From a virus, in IMG/VR virus record IMGVR_UViG_3300030090_005633, positions 1 through 26,589 of that record: a stretch of DNA of 26,589 nt. The stretch is one strand, 5' to 3'. Below are positions 21,231 to 25,347 of this stretch, in pieces (within the stretch, counting starts at the first letter, position 1; each line of letters begins with the position of its first letter). The notes beneath the pieces are model-generated. The model was not told the DNA's origin, ran no database searches, and saw only the letters and a program-made list of their open reading frames with translations. A program made the translations under genes and the position numbers.

Positions 21231-22577
21231 TTAATATATTCTAATCCCTGTTCGCTTGCCTGCCCTACCATAAAGTAAATTAAATTCTCTAAAAATAAGA
21301 TAGCCAAGCGCATCGACATGATGGTCGTATCCATTCTGTTTATCAGGATCGCCTGTCTTTTCATCGTAGCTCTGCAATTCGAGGCACTGAATTAAACGAG
21401 TGCAACTGGCATGAATCGCCAAACGTCTTTTCCCTTTGCCGTTCTGTAGTAACGCATTGACGGTTGCAACTCGATCTTTGATAAAGGGGTTGCTCTTGAG
21501 AGCCATTGAACTGAAGCCGTAACTTTCGAGGATTGCAATGTCTGTCTTTGATGCGTTAATCGTTGAACGTGCTGAACCACTAGCGTCAGGGTAAACTAAT
21601 ATTCTGTTTGAAGGATAGCGTCTGAGCAACTCCTGTGCCAACGCATCTGTGTCTTTTTGTTTTGATATTTCATCAATGATCACCAGCTTGTCACCATCTC
21701 TCACACCAATAACGCAGTTGCAGTTCATCACATTGAAATCTATGCCACAAAGTAAAGTCTCCATCTTGATGTCAAACGGTATTTTGTTGATGACATGATG
21801 CTCCCTGGAGAACCTGTTATAGACTTGTCCGCTGGTTAAATTGACCCACTGTCCTAGCAGATAAGCTTTGATCAACTGAGGTGGATAATTCTCATACAAA
21901 GATGGAATAAATGTATCGGGCAGATAAGGATTATCAGCCGTCTTTGCCTGGATCAATGCAGTATCAGATTTTTTATTTTTTTCAAAAGTTTCAAATGCCC
22001 AGCCGTGACCTTCGGGAGTTGTTGTTGCATAAAACTGCTGAACATTACCAGATCTAAGTCTTGCTAGTGCCATATTCATTGCACTCTCCGCATCTCGTTT
22101 CGGGATAGTGTCTGCCTCATCAAATCCAACTGCACACAGGTTTTGGCCTCGCAATCTTTGATATGTAAGCATTGTCCTTAACAAAATAGTATGTGTTCCT
22201 TCTTCCCAGGAAAGTTGATACTCAGGAAGCGGTGATGCTCTGAATGTGTAAGGTATTTGCCATTGATCTAATAATTCATTAAATGTACGAATTAAAATGT
22301 CTCTTAGCATCGGTGCTGTTGGTTGAAAAACAGCAGATACATGACCGATATTTAGACAAGCAAGCATCACAGCCTTTGAGCATAAGGCATAAGTTTTACC
22401 AGCACCAAAGCCACAGACTAGAGCTAATTTTCTATGATCCATGTCTTGGCAGAACTTTGCCTGATGCGGAAGTAAACCTTGATAAATTCTTTCTATCGTT
22501 TCTTGCGTTGTAGGAAGATTATATGCACCAATCTCATATAAAACTTTCCCAGGTTGAACTGTATCTAAAATGCTCAC
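21231..22577 (-). CDS. terL: Terminase large subunit
   Basis: A 448-residue DNA-packaging motor with ATPase and nuclease halves. Walker A is GFGAGKT (about 56-62); Walker B is AVGFDEAD (about 149-156), with Asp153-Glu154. A coupling motif with YATTTPEG follows (about 183-190). The nuclease domain has CGIDFNVMN (Asp280), YPDASGSAR (Asp331) and NGYDHHVDALGY (Asp422), the three acidic metal ligands expected. The start is GTG at 22577, overlapping the small-subunit stop (GTGA). The protein is complete. Confidence 0.95.
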   Translation of the reverse strand: MSILDTVQPGKVLYEIGAYNLPTTQETIERIYQGLLPHQAKFCQDMDHRKLALVCGFGAGKTYALCSKAVMLACLNIGHVSAVFQPTAPMLRDILIRTFNELLDQWQIPYTFRASPLPEYQLSWEEGTHTILLRTMLTYQRLRGQNLCAVGFDEADTIPKRDAESAMNMALARLRSGNVQQFYATTTPEGHGWAFETFEKNKKSDTALIQAKTADNPYLPDTFIPSLYENYPPQLIKAYLLGQWVNLTSGQVYNRFSREHHVINKIPFDIKMETLLCGIDFNVMNCNCVIGVRDGDKLVIIDEISKQKDTDALAQELLRRYPSNRILVYPDASGSARSTINASKTDIAILESYGFSSMALKSNPFIKDRVATVNALLQNGKGKRRLAIHASCTRLIQCLELQSYDEKTGDPDKQNGYDHHVDALGYLIFREFNLLYGRAGKRTGIRIY

Positions 22578-22894
22578 GAAATAATCTGTGCAAGTCTAGC
22601 TGCTGTATTGATTGCACCAAGAGCAATGTGTAAATGACCTTTTTCTCTTGCTTCCATCTGTAGCGTTGCAGCCTGCGCTAAGAGATTTGCCACCATTTCA
22701 GGTCTTTCCATATCCCAATCTGCTTTCATCTCGGCTCTGGCTATCTCTAAATACTTGTCAGCTGTTTTAGAACTGACCCCCCAATTTTTGGAAGCATATC
22801 TAACGCAATCGGATCTACGGCCACCTCTAGCGATGATCTCGCCAAGCTTGCGTGACCTAATAACAGTTTCTATTTTTGTACCTTTTTTAGCCAT
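22574..22894 (-). CDS. terS: Terminase small subunit
   Basis: A 106-residue, helical protein upstream of and overlapping the large subunit by 4 nt. It has a helix-turn-helix-like region (SDCVRYASKNWGVSSKTADK, about 28-47) and a second helical oligomerisation part (EMKADWDMERPEMVANLLAQ, HIALGAINTAARLAQI). It should recognise the phage packaging site and stimulate TerL. It is the first gene of the leftward structural operon. Confidence 0.8.
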   Translation of the reverse strand: MAKKGTKIETVIRSRKLGEIIARGGRRSDCVRYASKNWGVSSKTADKYLEIARAEMKADWDMERPEMVANLLAQAATLQMEAREKGHLHIALGAINTAARLAQIIS

Positions 22895-23167
22895 TACTTA
22901 GATGTTACACGGAAAAGCGAGAATATGAATATTTCTTAATTTTAAGACTCATTTGAGATTAGGTAGGTGTTCCCACGTTCCCAATGTTCCCACCTTTGTA
23001 CCAAACTTACCTCGCGTTATATTTATCCCCTATATCCCTATAATATACAATATATATATTTATATACTATATACTAGGAACATAAGGAACATATATATAT
23101 AGAGTAGTTATAGAAAGGGTTTTGAGCGTTCCCGAAGGTAGGAACAGGGTAGGAACAGTAAGGAACA
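22895..23167. other. Noncoding AT-rich region, candidate replication origin and structural-operon promoter
   Basis: I see no gene in these 273 bp. The centre (about 23018-23100) is almost pure A/T with runs of TATA. It is flanked by copies of GTTCC or its complement (listed separately). Two short perfect palindromes lie near the terminase gene: AATAT-GA-ATATT (22922-22933) and CTTAA-TT-TTAAG (22935-22946). Placement between the replication gene and the packaging genes fits an origin or a packaging site, and the late promoter for the leftward operon should also be near here. None of these roles is proven from sequence. Confidence 0.5.
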
Positions 23168-23207
23168 TCAGGATGATTTTTGAAACCAGACCCATTTCGG
23201 TGTTCCC
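22969..23207. repeat. Iteron-like cluster of GTTCC / GGAAC
   Basis: GTTCCC on the plus strand at 22969-22974, 22977-22982, 22986-22991, 23128-23133 and 23202-23207. The complementary GGAAC at 23077-23081, 23086-23090, 23141-23145, 23152-23156 and 23162-23166. That is ten copies in 239 bp, many spaced 8-11 bp apart (about one helix turn), on both sides of an AT-rich core. The last copy lies inside the 3' end of the PrimPol gene. Confidence 0.7.
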
Positions 23208-25201
23208 ATCACTCTTTTCTTTTTTCGATCATATTTGAGACTCCTTAAGATTTGACTTACGGTCATCATGTCACTTTTTGTTTGTCTTTCGATAGGTTTT
23301 TCGATGGCATCTGTTAACAAAACTTCAATAGTAATATCTTTAACTGAGTTTGACGGATCATTCAACCAATGACTTATAACAGATGACCAGGGAGAATCAA
23401 CCATGTATGATAAATTTTCCTTTTCAATCTGATGTTCCTCTTCGTAAGAAAGAAAATGAGGTTCATTATTTTTGAAGGCGTGAATCGCACCCGACCACAG
23501 AGCATCGCGCTCAAGCTGTAGGGAATCAAGATCAATAGATTTCGCAGTGCAGGGAATAACATGAAATCTCCGATTTCCTGTGTCATCTATCAACAGACCT
23601 GATTCTTTGTTACTGCTTCCTACAATAATGCCACGCCTAGGCCATTCTTCTACGGCTTTACCATAAGGAACTCTAAGAAGATCTGTTGACCTTGATAGAA
23701 AAGCTTTTACCACCCCTGCGTGTTTTCTTGATGTGATGCCATCAATTTCTGACCATTCCATTCCCCATGATCGGTGAAGTACGAGGAGATCATCTTTTGA
23801 AGAAATATCACCAAGAGCATCTGAGAAGAAGGGGCCGAAAAGGGTTTGCCAGAATGATGATTTTTTTATGCCTTGAGAACCCTGCAAGACGGTGGCGGTG
23901 TCATGTTTACAGCCTGGCATATAAACTCTTCTTACTGCATTTATAAGAGTGAGTTTAAGCATGGTGTCATATATTGTCGGTTCGGTAAGACTTTGATCCT
24001 GTGGTCTTAAATATGTTGATGCCAAAGATTCAATGTAAGCTGGTTGGATTTCGTTGTAACAGTGATCAAGATAAAGTTTTACAGGATCATATTCATTTTC
24101 ATGAGCTACTTTTAGGAGACAATCAACTGCCATTTCTTTTGGCACTTTATAACCAAGTTCTGCAAGAGTAAGATAAAAAATTTCAATATTTTTTATAACT
24201 TTGCCATCCATTTCTATTGAATGAGAAAAGGTATTAAATCTAATTTCTTGTTTAAGATTGCGTAAAAAATTTATAAGCTCCTGAGATGTAAGTTGTTCTA
24301 ATTTACGAGAAACAGGAGTTGATTCTTCTTTTGGTTCTATTGATGTTGGAAAAATGCGTGGTGGTGGAGTCCAACCATCTTCGGATGCAAACTTTTGAAG
24401 AGTACCAAGAGAAACCCCTGATGATTTAAATGATGACCATTTCTTTTCACATTCTCCTGATTTATATTTGCTGTTTTTTTGTGATAGCTGTTCCCAATCA
24501 AAGAGGAGAGAATCATCGCCTACTGAATGAGCAGCCATACCAATTTTGACCCATGTATCGTAGTCATCTAAACGGTTTGGATTTATTGATTGGAGAAGGG
24601 AACGTGCTTTATCTGTATCTGAGTTTAGAGTTTGTATCTGTGGTGCTTTTTTCTTTTTCGGCTCCATCATCTTTTGGATTATGGCAAAGGGAGCTTCTGC
24701 TATTTCAAGATCAGAGGGTGAACGACCATCCATCCACCTGTAACCGTCAGTTTTTGGATGTTTACCAGATACTATGGATTGCGTACCATTCCACCGCAAC
24801 TCTATTTGTTCAACAGAACCATCCTCATCTTTTACCCCTGTTTGAAATTTGCGAGTTTTTATCTTTGACCAATATTTTTCTGGAACTTGGTAAATTATCT
24901 GAAACCTACCGACCCGACCTGATGTGACCATCCATGATGGTGGGAGTGATGATAATGAAAAACCCCATTCACCTAATATTTTTGCAGCTGATGGCCCATC
25001 ATGATCTAGGAAAAGCAGGCCACCTGAAGGAGTTCCACAGCATACACCGATACCTGTAGATCTTTTTGCGACAAGCTCCTTAAACAGTTGTGATTGTTTA
25101 AGTGGATTGTTTTGCCAATCATTTTGATAAGGTCTTTTATTTTGAACGGCAACAAAACCCCAGTGCTTGGGAAGGCCAAGCAGTTCTTCTTTTATATCCA
25201 T
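23168..25201 (-). CDS. PrimPol-VirE replication protein (primase plus helicase)
   Basis: A 677-residue protein with three domains. Residues about 10-175 form a bifunctional primase-polymerase domain: GLLFLDHDGPSA (Asp66, Asp68 as likely metal ligands) and TSGRVGRFQIIY (about 93-104). Residues about 195-277 match the PriCT-2 domain (RLDDYDTWVKIGMAAHSVGD, CEKKWSSFKSSGVSLGTLQK). Residues about 410-640 form a VirE-type ATPase: the P-loop is GSQGIKKS (441-448; Lys replaces the usual Gly before the catalytic Lys), then MEWSEIDG, FLSRSTDLLRVPYGK and DDTGNRRFHVIP. The protein should prime and unwind DNA at phage replication start. The gene lies directly downstream of a ribbon-helix-helix gene (2-nt gap) and next to the GGAAC cluster. 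Confidence 0.9.
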   Translation of the reverse strand: MDIKEELLGLPKHWGFVAVQNKRPYQNDWQNNPLKQSQLFKELVAKRSTGIGVCCGTPSGGLLFLDHDGPSAAKILGEWGFSLSSLPPSWMVTSGRVGRFQIIYQVPEKYWSKIKTRKFQTGVKDEDGSVEQIELRWNGTQSIVSGKHPKTDGYRWMDGRSPSDLEIAEAPFAIIQKMMEPKKKKAPQIQTLNSDTDKARSLLQSINPNRLDDYDTWVKIGMAAHSVGDDSLLFDWEQLSQKNSKYKSGECEKKWSSFKSSGVSLGTLQKFASEDGWTPPPRIFPTSIEPKEESTPVSRKLEQLTSQELINFLRNLKQEIRFNTFSHSIEMDGKVIKNIEIFYLTLAELGYKVPKEMAVDCLLKVAHENEYDPVKLYLDHCYNEIQPAYIESLASTYLRPQDQSLTEPTIYDTMLKLTLINAVRRVYMPGCKHDTATVLQGSQGIKKSSFWQTLFGPFFSDALGDISSKDDLLVLHRSWGMEWSEIDGITSRKHAGVVKAFLSRSTDLLRVPYGKAVEEWPRRGIIVGSSNKESGLLIDDTGNRRFHVIPCTAKSIDLDSLQLERDALWSGAIHAFKNNEPHFLSYEEEHQIEKENLSYMVDSPWSSVISHWLNDPSNSVKDITIEVLLTDAIEKPIERQTKSDMMTVSQILRSLKYDRKKKRVMGTPKWVWFQKSS

Positions 25202-25203
25202 TG

Positions 25204-25347
25204 TTATGCAGCCTGCTCCATTCTTTCAGCAACAATAAGTCTGAGTAAACAGGATCTGGATTCAGAACCTTTGTTATCATCAAGCCATTTTATCTGACCC
25301 TGCGAGAGTTGAATATTGATAGTTTTTAAAATTTGCTCTTGTTCCAT
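25204..25347 (-). CDS. 47-residue ribbon-helix-helix DNA-binding protein
   Basis: The frame runs from ATG 25347 to TAA 25204-25206, ending 2 nt before the PrimPol start. The sequence KTINIQLSQGQIKWLDDN followed by ESRSCLLRLIVAERME is a typical Arc/CopG ribbon-helix-helix: an alternating beta strand (TINIQLS), a first helix and a second helix containing SRS then LIV. Proteins of this kind are small dimeric repressors that often control their own promoter. It heads the leftward replication operon and faces the rightward helicase gene. Confidence 0.75.
   Translation of the reverse strand: MEQEQILKTINIQLSQGQIKWLDDNKGSESRSCLLRLIVAERMEQAA

Follow-up and report, generated by a model that had tools for sequence, protein, structure and literature searches.

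A cluster of short repeats beside a primase-helicase gene is very probably the place where a cyanobacterial virus starts copying its DNA. We consider it highly likely that the cluster serves a tailed cyanophage as its replication origin, and that the adjacent PrimPol-VapE protein binds it through a C-terminal winged helix as a self-loading initiator. The repeats, their layout, their linkage to the PrimPol gene, the co-variation of the repeated word with the C-terminal domain, the modelled winged helix and the homology to PriRep1 were all computed here.

The repeat cluster and its surroundings

The window, the whole stretch of DNA that was analysed, is a 26.6-kb virus record (IMGVR_UViG_3300030090_005633, positions 1-26,589), and it is a fragment of a virus genome, since the record ends inside genes. 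The gene order on the minus strand is a 47-aa ORF, PrimPol-PriCT_2-VapE, the repeat cluster, a TerS-like gene, TerL, portal, and the head and tail genes. The terminase and portal DNA is ~71% identical to that of Prochlorococcus phages MED4-117 and P-HS2, and the PrimPol is 46% identical to the primase of Synechococcus phage S-LBS1. Portal, head, scaffold, tape-measure and tail genes are all present. Because it carries these structural genes of its own, the window is a phage and not a PICI, which would be a satellite without the full structural set. The features discussed below are as follows.

22574-22894, minus strand: TerS-like gene, 106 aa (phrog_34910), downstream neighbour of the cluster
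22969-22990, plus strand: far-side iteron array of three GTTCC (GGAAC on the PrimPol strand), at homologous positions kept in relatives
22991-23076, no strand: AT-rich core of 86 bp, presumed melting region; the PrimPol strand contains ATAGGGATATAGGGGATA
23077-23090, minus strand: inner array of two GGAAC (23077, 23086), GTTCC on the PrimPol strand, from word positions
23128-23132, plus strand: one GTTCC, oriented opposite to the two PrimPol-side arrays that flank it, conserved in the window clade
23141-23166, minus strand: PrimPol-proximal array of three GGAAC 10-11 bp apart, adjoining the PrimPol stop codon on its 3' side, from word positions
23168-25201, minus strand: PrimPol-PriCT_2-VapE/VirE protein, 677 aa (Pfam Prim-Pol 1e-15, PriCT_2 2e-20, VapE 9e-60)
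23171-23434, minus strand: PrimPol C-terminal winged-helix domain (residues ~600-677), presumed reader of the iteron word from the model and co-variation
23202-23206, plus strand: tenth GTTCC, in the last PrimPol codons (MGTPKW), conserved in relatives
25204-25347, minus strand: 47-aa ORF directly upstream of PrimPol, conserved in the window clade

The cluster has ten exact GTTCC/GGAAC words within 22969-23206, in both orientations, which is the count given by an earlier, sequence-only reading of this DNA. GTTCC starts at 22969, 22977, 22986, 23128 and 23202 on the plus strand, and GGAAC at 23077, 23086, 23141, 23152 and 23162. The tenth word, at 23202, lies inside the PrimPol coding sequence and is not intergenic. 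The spacing of 8-11 bp inside the arrays also agrees with that reading, and the mapping and Pfam domains bear out its placement of the cluster directly 3' of the Prim-Pol/PriCT_2/VapE gene. Its description of the core as nearly pure A/T stands only for about 37 bp (23039-23075, 92% A+T) and fails for the full 86 bp (22991-23076, 73%). The window has no denser 5-mer cluster. GTTCC reached at most five copies in 300 shuffles of the genome, against the ten observed, and GC-containing 5-mers reached at most eight per 239 bp in 40 first-order Markov shuffles. The five bases form the middle of a longer word, approximately AGGTAGGAACA / TGTTCCTACCT. Two other elements are kept in relatives, one like CTCAAATGAGTCTCA beside the cluster (22936-22962) and a related one, GAGTCTCAA, in the 3' end of PrimPol (23232-23243).

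The GC-skew minimum of the window lies near 23-24 kb, and the cumulative skew minimum of S-LBS1 (34063) lies near its own cluster, both being confounded by coding-strand bias. Third-codon GC skew shifts across the cluster in 33 of 36 window-clade loci and 33 of 49 others. By gene, the third-codon skew of PrimPol is the fifth lowest of the 13 window genes and no outlier. GC skew was on these grounds set aside as an origin test.

Conservation of the layout with changing words

PrimPols 86-100% identical to that of the window are encoded on 80 viral contigs. The sequence-only reading had proposed comparing the intergenic repeats in relatives, and the cluster is found at the same place wherever the downstream DNA is present, apart from a few internal deletions (L017 and L069 among them). 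These relatives form two clades. One has GTTCC throughout. In the other, most of the homologous positions on the PrimPol side read GTTCT(C), and the far side has mainly GGAAC. Across 68 sequences the GTTC/GAAC core columns are 96% conserved, against 83% for the other columns. A prophage search of genome contigs found only one relative, in a Cyanobium bin.

S-LBS1 (L083) has 17 copies of a different word, CCYAACC/GGTTRGG, at the equivalent place, and four elsewhere in its 34.6 kb. In this phage an iteron-bearing stretch of ~118 bp is repeated (about 34270-34388 and 34523-34641) and reaches the end of the record, which may be a terminal repeat or an effect of assembly. A search with the S-LBS1 PrimPol gave 80 more loci, almost all of which show a strong word cluster within 450 bp downstream of the PrimPol stop codon, the stretch in which clusters were sought. 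Besides S-LBS1, about 78 further loci have words of their own. The words differ by lineage (GTTCC, CCYAACC, GTAGGGCA, CGTCCTA, AGGTGGGG), and an EM motif search over 61 non-redundant loci returned, for example, AGGTTGGG, AGGTAGGGCA, GTAGGAACA, CCGTCCTA and AGGTGGGG.

The layout was scored as at least two words 7-12 bp apart, a start-to-start gap of 60-105 bp, and then at least two words in the opposite orientation. This arrangement of array, core and inverted array is present in 45 of the 61 non-redundant loci, which are related and so not independent events, while label shuffles averaged 8.5 and never exceeded 17. Opposite array polarity occurs once among the 61. The core is AT-richer than its own locus in all 45 loci with the layout, and the commonest spacing of neighbouring words is 9 bp, followed by 8 bp. 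The other 16 loci fail this strict test, in some cases as a result of deletions or of an unsuccessful motif search.

Read on the PrimPol strand, 36 of the 45 cores are G-rich and nine are C-rich (L135, L137, L165, L168, L176, L178, L189, L194 and L195). The C-rich cores align better to the G-rich ones once reverse-complemented, above composition-matched shuffled controls. The core thus seems, from these alignments, to be inverted between the inverted arms in these nine loci, and such inversion would fit an origin that functions regardless of core orientation.

Phages of other hosts also have such clusters. Downstream of the VapE helicase, phages of Streptococcus, Staphylococcus, Corynebacterium, Paenibacillus and Acutalibacter and one Streptococcus satellite have a gap of 285-345 bp with clusters of still other words. 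In S. thermophilus phage SW30, GGTAAC repeats follow the 3' end of the VapE helicase gene; the phage differs from the window in having separate primase and helicase genes and another word. Clusters are weaker in cyanophage S-2L and an Agathobacter phage, and three of 12 sampled public VapE phages (Bacteroides BK735P4, Pseudomonas Haddon and Leuconostoc vL_291) have no significant cluster. Judging from these comparisons, the cluster layout occurs in tailed phages of cyanobacteria and of several other hosts.

Two core patterns were also scanned in viral contigs, and every true occurrence adjoins a PrimPol gene or a contig edge. The idea that satellites borrow the origin was rejected, as these contigs hold no true copy of the pattern away from PrimPol except at contig edges.

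PrimPol as a candidate initiator and its relation to known systems

Word similarity between loci is correlated with the identity of the PrimPol C-terminal domain (r=0.56, 31 loci), the best of the PrimPol domains. The partial correlation for this domain given the helicase domain is 0.38 (permutation p=0.001) and the converse is 0.18; primase-domain identity adds nothing once the C-terminal domain is given. A structure model of the last 88 residues shows a winged helix made of three helices and a beta hairpin, with pLDDT mostly >90, and a fold search with this model returned only generic winged-helix matches. In the full-length model the helicase core is of low quality (pLDDT <50 at 432-447, 460-491 and 502-521), and only the C-terminal domain is therefore interpreted structurally. 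From the model and the co-variation, the reader of the word is most likely this predicted winged helix, the word changing along with the protein.

The family profile search of the PDB gave a single entry, 7PDS (chain 'Similar to D. nodosus vapE', E 5e-33). The same entry, 'PriRep1 with dsDNA', is the top Foldseek match for PrimPol (fold E 1e-8). We take PriRep1 to be the initiator of a staphylococcal pathogenicity island of the SaPI type. The sequence-only reading had suggested an origin bound by the PrimPol-VirE protein or by a partner such as a ribbon-helix-helix protein. The first of these gains support from the layout that is kept while the words change, from the way the word varies with the C-terminal domain, from a staphylococcal initiator helicase homologous to PrimPol, and from published SaPI/PICI origins of equal anatomy. 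The second is weak: Pfam gives no match for the 47-aa ORF upstream of PrimPol, and 66 of 77 window-clade loci have this ORF, whereas all 79 cluster-bearing S-LBS1-like loci lack it.

In the proposed mechanism, the winged helix of PrimPol-VapE would bind the repeated word. By analogy with SaPI/PICI initiators, copies of the protein may load on the two inverted arrays as two hexameric helicases facing the core. The AT-rich core would then melt and unwind, as for SaPI Rep, SCCmec Cch2 and PICI pri-rep-ori, and the N-terminal Prim-Pol domain may prime DNA synthesis, again by analogy. Replication would presumably be bidirectional.

The closest known systems are those of SaPI and PICI elements. SaPI Rep and SCCmec Cch2 each use a C-terminal domain to bind iterons that immediately follow the 3' end of the protein's own gene (PMC7581432). 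In PICI origins two iteron sets flank an AT-rich region 3' of pri-rep, and function was shown on plasmids (PMC6092414); the layout is reported as common to no other known replicon. The cluster resembles these origins (SaPI, EfCIV583, EcCICFT073 pri-rep-ori) in lying directly 3' of the primase-helicase gene (PMC6092414, PMC7581432). The initiators are homologous, the window PrimPol to SaPI Pri-Rep (PriRep1), and both have a C-terminal DNA-binding domain, which is a prediction for the window. The cluster differs in belonging to tailed phages with capsid, tail and terminase genes of their own, which are not satellites. The phage words are also different and diverse across dozens of lineages, with arrays at 8-9 bp spacing and inverted polarity. 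The SCCmec Cch2 origin (AAGTG) likewise has 5-bp iterons 3' of a helicase gene, and the C-terminal domain on its own binds them (PMC7581432), but this origin has three direct repeats only, its primase is a separate polymerase pair, and it resides on a chromosomal cassette.

The ori of S. thermophilus phage Sfi21 (PER element) is described, in the passage of PMC6356513 that cites it, as non-coding, located in the replication module and active as an origin. As far as that description goes, it is like the cluster in being a non-coding phage origin within a replication module, and phage origins of this general kind are thus not unheard of. A text search of the S-LBS1 paper found mention of neither an origin of replication nor repeats, and the match to a literature search combining cyanophage, origin of replication and iterons concerned a different system.

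It is very rare for the origin of an environmental phage to be identified. A rule that looks for paired inverted arrays 3' of a VapE-type primase-helicase would annotate origins in many viral contigs at once, and the paired data on words and winged-helix domains make a recognition code directly testable. Since the layout is reported as unique among known replicons, its presence in phages is relevant to the question of a phage source for the replicon of PICI satellites. There is perhaps an even chance of a broader picture, in which the anatomy described for PICIs is the general origin of VapE-type phages, words diversify with the winged helix into many mutually exclusive specificities, and an asymmetric core is inverted between symmetric arms in some lineages.

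Alternative roles of the cluster

The cluster could instead be a packaging (pac/cos) site, where TerS binds the words and DNA packaging starts. The sequence-only reading had named this alternative, and TerS does lie directly after the cluster in the window; among loci with a mapped terminase, 57, mostly of the window clade, show the same order. In many relatives, however, the two are apart. A ParB-like gene intervenes in 28 loci, leaving TerS 1.35-1.7 kb away and the cluster still at PrimPol; S-LBS1-like loci have TerS at a distance of up to 3 kb, or a sliding-clamp-like gene next to the cluster; and in the VapE phages of Streptococcus, Staphylococcus, Corynebacterium and Paenibacillus, as in the other host phages and the satellite, the gene beyond the cluster is a nuclease or of unknown kind. 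Prochlorococcus phage MED4-184 has a similar TerS without a cluster beside it. That the cluster remains beside PrimPol despite a change of downstream gene speaks against a TerS packaging site, and so does the tracking of the words with the PrimPol C-terminal domain. The terS linkage is not kept across relatives, and a packaging site is improbable. A role as an operator or control region, with a phage repressor or the 47-aa protein binding the words to regulate transcription, would suit the intergenic position and the conservation of ORF 25204-25347 in the window clade. On the other hand, the cluster is 3' of PrimPol and away from its promoter, the 10-17 copies around a core are far above the number in usual operators, and the S-LBS1-like loci have clusters without this ORF. 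No sigma-70 promoter or terminator was matched in the region, and a promoter or terminator element was rejected on that basis. An operator is distinctly unlikely.

A precedent exists for an origin recognised by DNA structure instead of words: pRN1, like the window, has a PrimPol-helicase-winged-helix gene with its origin 3' of it, which is an essential stem-loop and has no iterons (PMC4234260). The region here folds no better than shuffles (z -0.28), with no long stable stem-loop, and repeated conserved words are not expected from a pure stem-loop, so that an origin of this type is very unlikely. An RNA element was rejected as well, there being no unusual folding and no Rfam match for the cluster region. 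It is extremely unlikely that the cluster is a recombination hot spot or a set of chance repeats with no replication role. Chance is excluded by the shuffles and by conservation. A hot spot would agree with the module junction, where the gene after the cluster differs among close relatives, and with the nine apparently inverted cores, but swapping beside an origin is an expected by-product, and a hot spot leaves the co-variation of word and protein unexplained.

A module junction lies right after the putative origin, as seen in the ParB-like gene (MTSINDLQNDHKNARKRTDRSSK...), which is present or absent between the cluster and TerS in close relatives (L013, L014, L019, L022 and L199). The first ORF 3' of the cluster in L199 resembles, by eye, a DnaN-type sliding clamp, and ORFs are similarly placed in L200-L206. 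One contig of 55.8 kb (IMGVR_UViG_3300030376_002052) bears two PrimPol-origin-terminase loci, L070 and L079, with different downstream genes, and may represent tandem phages or a chimeric assembly.
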